Shown here: piece by piece, positions 34,895 through 40,390 of the stretch
Position numbering within the stretch: position 1 is the first letter of the stretch
Layout of the letters: every line of letters starts with the position of its first letter
DNA from: Bacillus sp. RO3
GTDB taxonomy: Bacteria > Bacillota > Bacilli > Bacillales > Bacillaceae_B
Reading direction: 5' to 3'
NCBI RefSeq assembly: GCF_012911895.1
Contig: NZ_JAAXCV010000022.1
Span: 124,001 to 188,000, forward strand
DNA length: 64,000 nt
The notes under the pieces: generated by a model
Seen by the model: only the letters and a program-made list of their open reading frames with translations
What the model was told of the DNA's origin: nothing
Database searches by the model: none
Translations under genes and position numbers: made by a program

Positions 34895-34906
34895 GGAGTC
34901 GTGCCC

Positions 34907-35671
34907 ATGGATGTCGAAGTGAAAAATGAAAAGGAACAGACCTTTTTGAAGGATCATGAGGTGAAAGAGCTGATAAAGCAAAGTCAGGCAGGTGACCAAA
35001 GCGCACGGGATTTAATCGTCCAGAAGAATATGCGCCTTGTGTGGTCAGTTGTCCAACGTTTCCTTAATCGGGGGTATGAGCCTGATGATCTCTTTCAGAT
35101 AGGTAGTATCGGGTTGCTGAAATCAGTCGATAAGTTTGATTTAAGCTACGACGTCAAGTTTTCAACATATGCTGTTCCGATGATTATCGGAGAAATCCAA
35201 CGGTTCATCCGGGATGACGGAACGGTAAAGGTGAGTCGATCCCTCAAGGAAATGGGGAACAAAATCCGCAAGGCCAAAGATGAACTTTCCAAGAAATTTG
35301 GAAGGGTACCGACCGTGAGTGAGCTTGCAGAGCATCTGGAATACTCGGTTGAAGAAGTAATCATGGCCCAGGAAGCGAGCCGGACTCCTTCTTCCATTCA
35401 TGAAACAGTCTACGAAAATGACGGTGACCCTATTACCTTGTTGGATCAGATTGCTGATAATACTGATAATAAATGGTTTGATAAAATTGCTTTAAAAGAA
35501 GCGATAAGGGAGCTGGATGATCGTGAACGGCTGATTGTGTACTTAAGATATTATAAAGACCAAACCCAATCTGAAGTAGCAGATCGCCTAGGTATATCAC
35601 AAGTCCAGGTGTCGAGGCTTGAGAAGAAAATTTTACAAACAATGAAAGATCATATGCATACAGAATCATAG
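34907..35671 (+). CDS. sigF: RNA polymerase sigma factor F
   Basis: First forespore-specific sigma factor. 254 residues with region 2 (RDLIVQKNMRLVWSVVQRFLN; FDLSYDVKFSTYAVPMI), region 3 and region 4 ending QTQSEVADRLGISQVQVSRLEKK. ATG 34907 follows AAGGAG. It ends at a long perfect hairpin that isolates the spoIIA operon from spoVA. Confidence 0.97.
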   Translation: MDVEVKNEKEQTFLKDHEVKELIKQSQAGDQSARDLIVQKNMRLVWSVVQRFLNRGYEPDDLFQIGSIGLLKSVDKFDLSYDVKFSTYAVPMIIGEIQRFIRDDGTVKVSRSLKEMGNKIRKAKDELSKKFGRVPTVSELAEHLEYSVEEVIMAQEASRTPSSIHETVYENDGDPITLLDQIADNTDNKWFDKIALKEAIRELDDRERLIVYLRYYKDQTQSEVADRLGISQVQVSRLEKKILQTMKDHMHTES

Positions 35672-35844: not shown

Positions 35845-35874
35845 TACATAAATAATGTCCGTTAACCCATACTA
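35845..35874 (+). promoter_or_regulatory. Sigma-G promoter of the spoVA operon
   Basis: TACATA (35845-35850) and CATACTA (35868-35874) are 17 bp apart. CATACTA equals the sigma-G -10 consensus and TACATA differs from TGMATA at one base. It lies 41 bp before spoVAA, a known sigma-G operon. Confidence 0.72.
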
Positions 35875-35915
35875 TTGTTACGAAGGGAAAATCATGTTTT
35901 CAGGATGTGAACTGC

Positions 35916-36536
35916 ATGGAAGGTATTCTTTATATACGCTTACGTCATCGAGTGCAGGTAAGGGAAGAGAGTAGGGTCAGGCTTGGGCAACTCGCTCAAA
36001 TCATAGCACCTGAAAATATTTTAGATGAGTTAAGGGACATTCCGATTCATCAGGTCAAAGAATCCGATAAGAATATCATTGTAGTGGATGTCATGAAGGT
36101 GATAAAGGAAATTTGCAAGAATTTCGGGGACCTGGATATCCAGACCATCGGACCTACACAAAGTATCATAGAAGTGATTTATGAGAAAAAGAAAGTCTCT
36201 CTTCCTCTCTTTATTGGAGTTTGGCTGCTTTTATTCATCGGTGCAGCCCTGGCAATTATGAATTTTCATGAAGATGTAAGCATGAGGGAGGTTCATCAAA
36301 GGCTGTATCACTTTGTGACGGGTAATGAAGATCCCCATCCCTTACTGTTTCAAGTTCCATATTCATTGGGGTTGGGTCTTGGGATGATTTTATTTTTCAA
36401 TCACGTATTCAGAAAAAGGCTGAATGAAGAACCGAGTCCATTAGAGGTTGAAATGTTTAATTATCAGCAGGATTTAGATCAGTATGTCATCATGAATGAA
36501 AACAAAGAAAGTCAGAAGAGAATAGATGACCATTAA
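35916..36536 (+). CDS. spoVAA: Stage V sporulation protein AA
   Basis: Inner-spore-membrane protein of the SpoVA dipicolinate channel complex. 206 residues: a soluble N-terminal domain of about 95 residues, two membrane helices (around LFIGVWLLLFIGAALAIM, and PYSLGLGLGMILFF), and the conserved RLNEEPSPLEVEMFNYQ stretch near the C terminus. ATG 35916 is chosen because the product then starts MEGILYIRLRHRV like B. subtilis; GTG 35907 is an alternative. Confidence 0.93.
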   Translation: MEGILYIRLRHRVQVREESRVRLGQLAQIIAPENILDELRDIPIHQVKESDKNIIVVDVMKVIKEICKNFGDLDIQTIGPTQSIIEVIYEKKKVSLPLFIGVWLLLFIGAALAIMNFHEDVSMREVHQRLYHFVTGNEDPHPLLFQVPYSLGLGLGMILFFNHVFRKRLNEEPSPLEVEMFNYQQDLDQYVIMNENKESQKRIDDH

Positions 36537-36948
36537 TGTACTGATCACCATCTTTATTGGTTTTGCTGGTGGATTGGCAGTAGGTTCTGGGTTCGTTGCA
36601 TTCTTAACTGTATTGGGGATTATACCCAGATTGACCCAATTAACAAAGACCATGAAAATGATACACCACTATGAACTCGCTGTCATTTCAGGAGCTCTGG
36701 CTGGGGGATTTATAAGCTTAAACAACTATACATTCCATTTTTCCCCATTCGTCCTGATACCTATCGGTTTGGCGAGCGGAGTGTTCATAGGATTGCTGGC
36801 AGCTGCTTTAACAGAAGTATTGAATGTTTTTCCTATTCTCGCCAAGCGGATTGGGATAGAAGGTCAAATCGTCATCCTTATCATGGCGATTGTGTTCGGC
36901 AAAATCACAGGCTCCCTCTTTCATTGGCTCTACTTGGTTCATCAATAA
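36526..36948 (+). CDS. spoVAB: Stage V sporulation protein AB
   Basis: 140-residue integral membrane protein with four or five helices (VLITIFIGFAGGLAVGSGFV at 5-24). Overlaps the end of spoVAA by 11 bp, so translation is coupled. Required with SpoVAA for SpoVA channel function in B. subtilis. In that species spoVAC follows; here spoVAEA follows after only 22 bp. Confidence 0.93.
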   Translation: MTINVLITIFIGFAGGLAVGSGFVAFLTVLGIIPRLTQLTKTMKMIHHYELAVISGALAGGFISLNNYTFHFSPFVLIPIGLASGVFIGLLAAALTEVLNVFPILAKRIGIEGQIVILIMAIVFGKITGSLFHWLYLVHQ

Positions 36949-36970
36949 ATAGTAAGGGGCAGGGGTTCGT

Positions 36971-37540
36971 ATGGACAACAAGAGAAAAGTGATCCTGATA
37001 ACAGACGGAGATGAATATGCCAAGCGGGCTATAGAGTGCGTTGCAAAGGAGTATGGAGGGCGATGCATCTCAAGTTCAAAGGGCAATCCGTCTGTACTCT
37101 CAGGCCCGGAAATAGTGAAATTAATAAAAAGTGCCAAGAACGACCCTGTATTTGTGATGTTTGACGATAGTGGATTCATTGGAGAAGGTGCAGGTGAACG
37201 AGCCCTTAAGCATGTAGCGAGACACCCTGATATGCAGGTTCTCGGGATCATTGCCGTTGCCAGTAAAACGAAGCAGGCAGAATGGACAAAAGTGGATGTA
37301 TGCATTGATAAATTTGGTGAATTGACTCCATATGGAGTAGATAAATTTGGAGTACCTGAAATGGATGTGGGGAGGTTGACAGGTGATACGGTCTATTGCC
37401 TAGATGAGTTGGATGTCCCTGTCATCGTCGGGATTGGTGACATAGGCAAAATGGCGAAAAGAGATCATTACTCCCAAGGAGCCCCCATTACGAAGAAGGC
37501 TGTCGAAATCATCTTGGAAAGGAGCGGGTACCATGCCTGA
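36971..37540 (+). CDS. spoVAEA: Stage V sporulation protein AEA
   Basis: Soluble 189-residue protein starting [22 protein letters not shown]; contains [17 protein letters not shown] and ends [19 protein letters not shown]. Its fold and role are unclear; it is part of the spoVA operon and located on the outer face of the germination complex in Bacillus studies. ATG 36971 follows AAGGGGCAGGGG. Overlaps spoVAF by 8 bp. The genes expected just upstream (spoVAC, spoVAD, spoVAEB) are absent. Confidence 0.9.
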
Positions 37541-39011
37541 GAAAACGAAGAAAACACCGATTCCAAAAGACATCGGGATTATGGAAGACTACATGAAAAA
37601 TCATGTGGGGCTGAATAAGAGCTTCGATCTGGGTGTAAGGAAGCTCATGATCTTGAAAAAGGGCGTGCACATCTACTATATCAATGGCCTGACGGATGCT
37701 TCCTACATTATCCAAATCGTAGAGGAACTTGTTGAAATCAATGATCATGAACGTGCAACCAGCCGTTTATATGAGATTGTACATAATCGACTTGTTCATC
37801 AGTCGGTTGAGCCCGTGAAAACGATTGAAGAAGCAGTGGACGAAGTCCTGTCAGGGCTGATAGCTGTCATTGTTGAAGGCTACGAAGAGGCGATCATTGT
37901 TGATGTCCGCAGCTACCCTGGAAGACAGCCGTCAGAGCCGGATACAGAAAAGGTGGTCCGTGGGTCACGTGATGGCTATGTAGAGAACATCATTGTGAAT
38001 ACGGCATTAACGAGACGGAGAATCAGGGATCCGCGCTTAAGGTTTGAGATCTTTCGCATAGGTGAAAGGTCAAAGACAGACATTTCAATTGCGTATATCA
38101 AAGATGTGGCCAACCCAAGCCTGATAGAGGTCATTAAAAAAGAATTGAAAAGTATAAAAATCGATGGCTTGACCATGGCAGATAAAACCGTTGAAGAATT
38201 CCTTGTGAAACAGGGGTATAATCCATACCCGCTTGTACGGTACACGGAAAGGGCAGATGTAGGGGCCACTCACTTACTGGAGGGACATGTTCTTATTTTT
38301 GTGGATACTTCCCCAAGTGTCATCATTACTCCAACAACCTACTTCCATCACCTCCAGCACGCCGAGGAGTACAGACAATCACCCGCAGTGGGGACATTTG
38401 TCAGATGGACCAGGTTCCTTGGGATCTTGGCCTCGCTGTTTTTACTCCCGTTATGGTATCTGTTTGTGTTGGACCCTTCTTTATTACCAGAAATGATTAA
38501 ATTTGTCGGACCGAATGAACAGACAAATATTCCAGTTATTGTTCAGTTATTCATAGCGGATTTCGGGGTTGAAATGTTCAGGGTGGCTGCCATTCATACT
38601 CCAACCCCATTGTCTACAGCCATGGGGTTGATTGCAGCCGTTTTAATCGGGCAAATTGCCATTGATGTAGGTTTATTTCAGCCGGAGGTCATTCTCTATG
38701 TAGCGGTTGCATCCATCGGGACGTTTGCAACGCCAAGTTATGAATTAAGTGCGGCGAACAAAATGGCTAGGCTGTTCCTTCTCATTGCAGTAGCGTTTTT
38801 CCACATCCCGGGTCTTATGGTGGGAACGACACTGTATATCCTATTCGTCACAAATATCAAATCGCTGAATACGCCATATTTATGGCCTCTTATGCCATTC
38901 AGTCCGAAAGCGTTCATGCAGATCCTGATTCGACGTTCTATGCCTGGTGCGAAAATCAGACCAAGCATTGTACAGCCGAGAAACAAGTATAAGCAGCCGG
39001 CGAAATCGTAG
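37533..39011 (+). CDS. spoVAF: Stage V sporulation protein AF (GerA-like)
   Basis: 492-residue member of the GerAA/SpoVAF family: a large N-terminal soluble region to about 285, then five membrane helices (for example [18 protein letters not shown]), and a basic cytoplasmic tail [18 protein letters not shown]. In B. subtilis SpoVAF works with FigP as an ion-release amplifier in germination and also helps SpoVA function. ATG 37533 lies within the end of spoVAEA. Confidence 0.94.
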
Positions 39012-39088
39012 GAATATTGCAACAATTCTCATTCTGTGGTAAATTACGTTTAATCAGTAGAGTATTATAGAGGGGAATGAGGCGCTTC

Positions 39089-40390
39089 ATGCATCTTCAT
39101 GGATCATCAGAAATACAAAATGGTCATCTTATCATAGGCGGAGTGAGTACCGTAAAGTTGACAGCACAATACGGTACTCCCCTTTATGTATATGACACAA
39201 CACTCATCAGAGAACGTGCAAGAGGTTTCAAAGAGACGTTTGAGGCCCTGGGAGTAAAGGCTGAAGTTGCGTATGCCAGTAAGGCATTTTCATGTATAGC
39301 CATGTTTCAATTAATGAAAGAAGAAGGATTATCGCTGGATGTGGTTTCAGGTGGGGAATTATATACTGCTTTAAAGGCAGATTTCCCCCTTGAACGCATC
39401 CATTTTAATGGAAATAATAAGTCCAAGGATGAATTGAAAATGGCCGTTGAAAAGAAAATAGGCTGCATTGTGGTGGATAACTTTTATGAATTGGAACTTG
39501 TGAACGACATGTCAAGCTCTGCCGAAAGTAAGACGAATGTTCTATTGAGAGTGACCCCTGGGATTGAAGCTCATACACATGACTATATTCTTACCGGTCA
39601 AGAGGATTCCAAATTCGGATTCGACTTAGGTAACGGTCAAGCTGAAGCAGCCATGAAAATGGCGATGAGTTATGAAGGGATTGAATTATTGGGGCTGCAT
39701 TGTCATATTGGGTCACAAATATTTGAAACGACAGGCTTCATTCTTGCTGCCAAAAGGATTATTGAAAAAGTTGCCCAATGGAAATCACAATATGATTTTG
39801 ACCCGAAAGTAATCAATTTAGGTGGGGGCTTCGGAATCCGCTATACAAAAGATGATGACCCGATCCCTCCTTCGCAATATGTTAAGGAAATGATTACTGC
39901 TGTTAAAGACGAAGTGAGCAGATACAATCTTGAAATGCCTGAAATCTGGATTGAACCAGGAAGGTCCCTCGTAGGTGATGCAGGAACCAGCCTGTATAAA
40001 TTGGGTTCTAGAAAAGAAGTCCCGAACATCCGCAAGTACTTAGCTGTTGATGGAGGCATGAGTGATAACATCAGACCTGCACTCTACAAGGCGAAGTATG
40101 AAGCTGTGATTGCCAATAAAGCAGATCATGCGCCTGAAGAAACGGTTTCAATCGCTGGTAAATGCTGTGAATCAGGGGATATGTTGATTTGGGATCTGCC
40201 GCTTCCAGAATCTGAAGCCGGCGATATCCTTGCTGTGTTCTGTACAGGAGCATACGGGTACTCCATGTCGAATAACTACAATCGTATTCCCCGCCCTGCA
40301 GTCGTGTTCGTCGAAGATGGAGAAGCAAGATTAGCTGTTCATAGAGAAACGTATGAGGATATCGTTTCCCTTGATGTAACCTTTAAGTGA
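39089..40390 (+). CDS. lysA: Diaminopimelate decarboxylase
   Basis: Last step of lysine synthesis: PLP-dependent decarboxylation of meso-diaminopimelate. 433 residues, alanine-racemase-like barrel with PLP lysine Lys65 in YASKAFS, GGGFGIRY (phosphate loop), WIEPGRSLVGDAG, and the dimer-partner Cys in GKCCESGDML. ATG 39089 gives MHLHGSS, as in homologues; the frame opens at 39077. Position after spoVAF is the B. subtilis arrangement. Confidence 0.96.
   Translation: MHLHGSSEIQNGHLIIGGVSTVKLTAQYGTPLYVYDTTLIRERARGFKETFEALGVKAEVAYASKAFSCIAMFQLMKEEGLSLDVVSGGELYTALKADFPLERIHFNGNNKSKDELKMAVEKKIGCIVVDNFYELELVNDMSSSAESKTNVLLRVTPGIEAHTHDYILTGQEDSKFGFDLGNGQAEAAMKMAMSYEGIELLGLHCHIGSQIFETTGFILAAKRIIEKVAQWKSQYDFDPKVINLGGGFGIRYTKDDDPIPPSQYVKEMITAVKDEVSRYNLEMPEIWIEPGRSLVGDAGTSLYKLGSRKEVPNIRKYLAVDGGMSDNIRPALYKAKYEAVIANKADHAPEETVSIAGKCCESGDMLIWDLPLPESEAGDILAVFCTGAYGYSMSNNYNRIPRPAVVFVEDGEARLAVHRETYEDIVSLDVTFK

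Follow-up and report, generated by a model that had tools for sequence, protein, structure and literature searches.

In Bacillus subtilis, the spoVA1 operon comprises seven genes in the order spoVAA-AB-AC-AD-AEb-AEa-AF; their products are abbreviated here as AA, AB, C, D, Eb, EA and AF. According to a review (PMC11841064), C, D and Eb constitute the minimal channel for dipicolinic acid (DPA), and DPA transport is impaired by deletions of spoVA genes other than EA and AF. The same review describes AA and AB as probable helpers of C-D-Eb in DPA release, and it reports that B. subtilis mutants in AA or AB germinate prematurely in a receptor-dependent manner and have normal DPA after gerA has been removed. 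SpoVAF, together with FigP, is assigned there to an ion channel which amplifies the germinant-receptor signal in B. subtilis. A STRING prediction cited in PMC11837508 points to a possible binding of SpoVAF to C, D and Eb. A related system is the spoVA2 set of the B. cereus group, whose complex is given as C2/D2/Eb2/NJ2 and does not include AA, AB, EA or AF; in B. subtilis devoid of its own spoVA operon, this set is reported to suffice for the import of DPA (PMC13059800). Finally, Galperin (2012, PMC3533761) lists spoVAC, spoVAD and spoVAEB for all spore-forming bacilli and clostridia, AA and AB being less widely kept.

The DNA analyzed here (the window) is a stretch of 64,000 nucleotides from Bacillus sp. 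RO3 (contig NZ_JAAXCV010000022.1, positions 124,001 to 188,000). As in B. subtilis, AA, AB, EA and AF follow one another in this order between sigF and lysA, preceded by a candidate forespore promoter; all features lie on the plus strand. The upstream flank is sigF of the spoIIA operon (34901..35671; TIGR02885, 1.6e-113). It is followed by spoVAA (35907..36536; PF12164, 1e-21), for which a GTG start is listed and an alternative ATG exists at 35916, by spoVAB (36526..36948; PF13782, 6.2e-36), spoVAEA (36971..37540; PF14097, 3.7e-83; NF052647, 4e-104), and spoVAF, coding for a GerA-A-like ion-channel subunit (37533..39011; PF03323, 3.5e-155). The downstream flank is lysA (39077..40390; TIGR01048, 8e-156). 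In contrast to the B. subtilis operon, however, C, D and Eb are all missing from the profile matches of the window: AB and EA are separated by only 22 bases (36949..36970), a purine-rich stretch resembling a ribosome site, at the position where intact operons contain spoVAC-spoVAD-spoVAEB. The initial annotation had noticed this absence, and the observation is correct. The candidate promoter, ACATA-N17-CATACTA (35846..35874), agrees without mismatch with the pattern used for the sigma-F/sigma-G consensus, and ends 32 bases before the listed spoVAA start. Its -10 element CATACTA is identical in eight aligned sequences, namely the window and seven of ten other loci of the genus; one locus (L072) deviates in the -35 element. 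Over 11,531 bases, this part of the window matches the complete-genome record CP128835.1 of Rossellomorea sp. AcN35-11 with 99.7% identity, which assigns the organism to Rossellomorea; the junction is common to both. A tRNA search of the window yielded none. For SpoVAEA, a sequence search found no solved relative. Its predicted structure (pLDDT 80.6, based on only nine sequences) had no PDB match at an E-value of 0.001, and the top-ranked PDB match, with TM-scores of 0.42 and 0.54, gave no usable clue to function.

A search of the entire genome, 4.22 Mb in 34 contigs, revealed exactly two matches to PF03862 (SpoVAC/SpoVAEB), both within C20:10257-12013, and a single match to SpoVAD (C20:10620-11618), which is located between C and Eb. 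The core is thus encoded elsewhere, in one spoVA2-like cluster, as had been anticipated. On the minus strand of contig C20, the order is a 155-residue lipobox protein, SpoVAC, SpoVAD, SpoVAEb, and a DUF421 (YetF-like) gene (PF04239, 2.4e-37); this is the order described for the B. cereus-group spoVA2 cluster and for the mobile spoVA2mob operon (PMC13059800, PMC5133452, PMC10126465). Unlike in those clusters, none of the ten reading frames that were scanned in the C20 region matched DUF1657. Moreover, whereas the B. cereus group possesses spoVA2 beside a complete spoVA1 operon (PMC13059800), spoVA2 is the only channel set of the window genome; neither the whole-genome search nor the trees described below indicated a spoVA1-type core copy elsewhere. 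For the C20 set, we propose a function in DPA transport across the inner spore membrane.

The protein encoded just upstream of spoVAC in C20 has the lipobox LIGC and scores 18.9 bits with PF09580, the profile used to look for a YhcN/YlaJ-type lipoprotein such as NJ2, which is under the cut-off of 26.3 bits. Ten related proteins upstream of C all match this family at an E-value of 0.1 or better, five of them above the cut-off; for the protein of locus L069, a ribosomal-protein family outscores PF09580, yet stays under its own cut-off. A reading frame of at least 90 residues precedes C directly in 36 of 37 spoVA2-type core loci, and 31 of these 36 contain the lipobox pattern. Ahead of the lipoprotein gene, where the initial annotation had proposed to look for a sigma-G promoter, a comparison of 8 of the 11 genus loci brought out only a conserved AT-rich block with a weak -10 element. 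Another DUF421/YetF gene (L003:6703-7395, where L003 is C20:1-20000) is encoded on the opposite strand and follows the spoVA2 cluster downstream at a distance of 2 kb.

In the genus Rossellomorea, AB adjoins EA without a core between them in all 25 genomes, each of which has exactly two PF03862 matches. The EA and AB matches are without stops in 25 of 25 genomes, although the AB of G016 is truncated where its contig stops; three of the genomes (G003, G012, G017) consist of one contig. Note that one genome (G024) is 10% contaminated and has the locus twice. The initial annotation had described a clean junction that looked established, and it was right on both points, the age of the junction being considerable; CP128835.1 shares it with these 25 genomes.

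For the order, an even sample of 150 genomes with a completeness of at least 90% was used. AB occurs in 139, EA in 107, and C/Eb in 147 of them; the three genomes without a core are also those without AB, EA, and FigP. EA is absent from 43 of the 150 genomes, and AB from 8 of the 147 which have a core. The listing of the three core genes as general and of AA and AB as less widely retained (Galperin 2012, PMC3533761) is in keeping with these findings. Among the 103 genomes with both AB and EA, 35 are split and 68 have the core intact in the operon. The gap between the AB and EA domain matches is 48-256 bases in the split genomes versus 1,723-2,241 bases, which is the size of the trio, in the intact ones; the genes themselves were inspected in 10 of the intact loci and, beyond the genus, in 17 split ones, the others being assigned by gap size. 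Of 39 families, 15 are split only and 24 intact only, and none is mixed. For the 36 genomes with AB and without EA, placements were read by eye from the listed places (one of three hits of G082 is unlisted): C/Eb lie away from AB in 18, C adjoins AB in 11, and the place is indeterminate in 7. Altogether, 53 of the 132 placeable AB-bearing genomes have C/Eb at a site other than the operon (35 of 103 with EA, by gap; 18 of 29 without EA, by eye). The split arrangement is common in the order, not rare. The original statement that B. subtilis and most relatives have the trio at this place is correct at the level of the order (68 of 103), but not for the near kin: the trio is missing there in all 25 genomes of the genus and in each of the 80 top-ranking loci among 478 named ones (from Rossellomorea, Neobacillus, Cytobacillus, Mesobacillus, Niallia, and other genera), which were ranked by likeness to the SpoVAEA of the window and are consequently biased towards near kin, one genome being represented twice (L117, L118). 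At the junction of G048 (family f25), which measures 254 bases between the domain matches, tblastn detected no C, D or Eb at an E-value of 1e-3. In another split locus (L012 of G126, family f30), spoVAEA is broken by an in-frame stop.

The origin of the C20 trio can be read from a tree of C, D, and Eb with 43 rows, in which 13 of the 15 split families are represented and the outside rows of G033 and G035 hold no D. A branch with a support of 100/100 parts 32 cores located outside the operon, the C20 trio among them, from 11 in-operon cores. Six genomes whose operon is intact (G027, G028, G029, G034, G036, G051) contribute their second trios to the 32 outside cores. The same branch was obtained at 100/100 once two very long in-operon rows (G028, G036) had been removed, and a tree of D is concordant (39 against 15). 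The split families f19 and f27 were judged by identity only: their C reaches 77% and 80% identity with its best spoVA2 counterpart, as against 64% and 68% with its best spoVA1 counterpart. Exactly two C/Eb hits were found in 31 of the 35 split genomes; in the 68 intact genomes, there are at least four hits in 40, three in one, and two in 27. Since the C20 trio clusters with second trios that occur beside intact operons and has neighbours of its own, the core of one paralogue has been lost: on the evidence of these sequences, the operon's own core is gone and the spoVA2 paralogue stands in for it, the trio itself not having moved.

A further tree was based on the markers AA, AB, AF, LysA, and SigF and has 39 rows, each of which was required to have AB and AF. 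With the reservations that the bootstrap is not fully settled, that the markers are located within the operon or next to it, and that the count is blind to direction (gain versus loss), the core-in-operon state changes five times on this tree, and five times also across the 5-95% range of the bootstrap trees. The starred branches alone force at least four changes, none of the bootstrap trees has a single change, and a single origin is rejected (p-AU 3e-5). Because of the two-paralogue tree, loss is the simpler reading of the five changes, which would correspond to four to five separate core losses with AB and AF persisting; losses that took AB or AF as well are uncounted. The repeated loss of the core in relatives points to an independent function of the genes that remain.

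Several genomes display mixed or half-way states. In family f10 (G033, G078; L046, L047, L088, L089), AA-AB-D-AF are found in the operon, and the lipoprotein gene, C and Eb elsewhere. Each of these genomes has a single D of the in-operon type, together with C/Eb of the spoVA2 type (according to the tree for G033 and to identity for G078). Judged by these assignments, the family appears to be a natural hybrid which combines the plug D1 with the channel C2/Eb2. In families f12 (G035, G080) and f40 (G063), the sole D is of the spoVA2 type and is found at a third location, next to a DUF421 gene and away from C-Eb (L084, L085, L090 with L049, L086, L189). A lone SpoVAD of the in-operon type, with no C/Eb at its side, was found in L091 (G127) and in L102 (G068), where a complete spoVA2 set is also present; in the G068 locus, AA and AB are gone too. 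The in-operon C and Eb of L057 (G028) and L059 (G036) are open frames, only 25-38% identical to those of the window genome, and a normal spoVA2 set is present; these divergent genes possibly represent a stage before loss.

The genes left behind in the operon are under strong purifying selection in the genus. The median dN/dS values are 0.058 for AA, 0.027 for AB, 0.029 for EA, and 0.027 for AF, the flanking genes having 0.019 (sigF) and 0.082 (lysA). These values were computed from named genus loci, 25 in number (24 in the case of lysA), with pairs of dS 0.05-1 only, that is, from 13 to 80 pairs per gene out of 300 possible ones (276 for lysA); most of the dropped pairs were presumably too diverged. 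When divergence is scaled to LysA, the values for split versus intact families are 1.64 and 1.54 for AA, 1.32 and 1.23 for AB, and 1.33 and 1.19 for EA, whereas AF evolves more slowly in the split families (1.03 versus 1.19); the 120 and 36 pairs compared are non-independent, and these figures are descriptive. Both partners of the SpoVAF/FigP channel are encoded in the window genome, as in the described system: the gene for FigP/YqhR is located at C15:61960-62448, on the same contig as spoVAF and outside the window. In contrast to that system, the operon neighbours of spoVAF do not include the DPA channel genes. FigP occurs in 146 of the 150 genomes of the order sample, that of strain RO3 (G000) included; its presence is non-discriminating, since it is nearly universal in the sample. 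In all four sampled genomes of family f28 (G051, G093, G124, G151), the FigP (YqhR) match was flagged with an internal TAG stop. The window genome has eight GerA-A-type matches, SpoVAF included.

Taken together, we consider it probable that the core was lost, that spoVA2 is the sole DPA channel, and that the remaining operon is a germination-signalling module which passes its signal to SpoVA2. The absence of the core, the presence of its paralogue, the recurrence of the arrangement, and the purifying selection are features of the sequences themselves. In the proposed sequence of events, an ancestor would have possessed two core sets, a classic SpoVA1 set in the seven-gene operon and a spoVA2-type cluster (lipoprotein "NJ2"-C2-D2-Eb2-YetF-like). 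The stretch C1-D1-Eb1 would then have been lost cleanly in this lineage, which joined spoVAB to spoVAEA. As a consequence, the spoVA2 complex would have become the only DPA channel of the inner membrane, responsible for import in sporulation and for release in germination. AA, AB, EA, and AF would be expressed and still yield working proteins, and the window operon, devoid of a channel, would signal to the paralogous SpoVA2 channel. The role as germination-signalling module is the most likely one, because the split follows the reported functional border between channel genes and receptor-signal genes. Several points tell against this reading: the description of AA and AB as helpers in DPA release, a role with which the split is compatible, and the impaired DPA transport after deletions other than EA and AF (PMC11841064); the STRING prediction for SpoVAF (PMC11837508); the near-universal presence of FigP; the slightly higher scaled divergence of AA, AB, and EA in split families; the genomes in which AB or EA is missing; the PF09580 score under the cut-off; and the weak -10 element ahead of the lipoprotein gene.

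Three alternatives conflict with the loss of the core or with a function of the remaining genes. The initial annotation had favoured a rearrangement that relocated the C-D-Eb trio of the operon, such that two halves of one channel would be made from two transcripts. A trio does sit elsewhere in the genome, but it is a paralogue belonging to the 100/100 group of second trios from intact genomes, and it is embedded in the recurrent spoVA2 gene order; relocation is for this reason highly improbable. An assembly collapse or error at 36948-36971 has next to no probability: the same junction occurs in the 25 genomes of the genus, among them the three that consist of one contig, and in CP128835.1, and an absence that is shared by independent assemblies is no assembly fault. 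The third alternative regards AA, AB, EA, and AF as decaying relics of a dead operon. Members can indeed be lost, as is evident from the 43 of 150 genomes without EA, the stop in G126, and the 8 of 147 core-bearing genomes without AB; this interpretation is nevertheless very unlikely in view of the strong purifying selection, the EA and AB genes free of stops throughout the genus, the conserved candidate promoter, and the persistence of AB and AF after four to five core losses, in rows chosen for having AB and AF.

Two further readings concern the relation of the remaining genes to the channel. SpoVAA, SpoVAB, and SpoVAEA could be genuine accessory subunits of a DPA channel which, in place of forming a separate signalling module, have switched their partner and bind the SpoVA2 core directly. 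The description of AA and AB as channel helpers (PMC11841064) speaks for such a switch, as do the slightly higher divergence that AA, AB, and EA show in the split families and the combination of D1 with C2/Eb2 that makes up the sole set of family f10, which implies that parts of the two sets are combinable in one genome. On the other hand, C2/D2/Eb2/NJ2 are the reported components of the spoVA2 complex in the B. cereus group, and this set is reported to import DPA in B. subtilis devoid of its native spoVA operon (PMC13059800); AA or AB mutants of B. subtilis are reported to be at normal DPA once gerA is removed (PMC11841064). We judge a partner switch rather unlikely. A more far-reaching idea, for which the chances are slightly less than even, is that AA-AB-EA-AF stand outside the DPA channel altogether and form an autonomous germination-signal module, which would have been freed from the channel several times. 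The "spoVA operon" of the Bacillales would then consist of two machines under one promoter, the channel side being exchangeable or mixed, as in the combination of D1 with C2/Eb2 in family f10.

If, as we propose, a signalling module is left in the operon and spoVA2 serves as the channel, the balance between two separately transcribed halves, about which the initial annotation had asked, is a less pressing question, because C-D-Eb is reported as the minimal channel in B. subtilis (PMC11841064) and the spoVA2 set as sufficient for import there (PMC13059800). The components and the paralogues were already known. Our literature search, with its partial coverage, brought up neither an experiment in this genus nor an earlier description of the split arrangement or of its recurrence; an earlier notice is possible. 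For the biology of these spore formers, the finding has three implications. The split-operon species naturally part AA, AB, and EA from the channel genes, which makes the two sides separately deletable and open to study. They also let the spoVA2 channel be studied without any spoVA1 core. Finally, B. subtilis is an unsafe guide to the organisation of spoVA genes.
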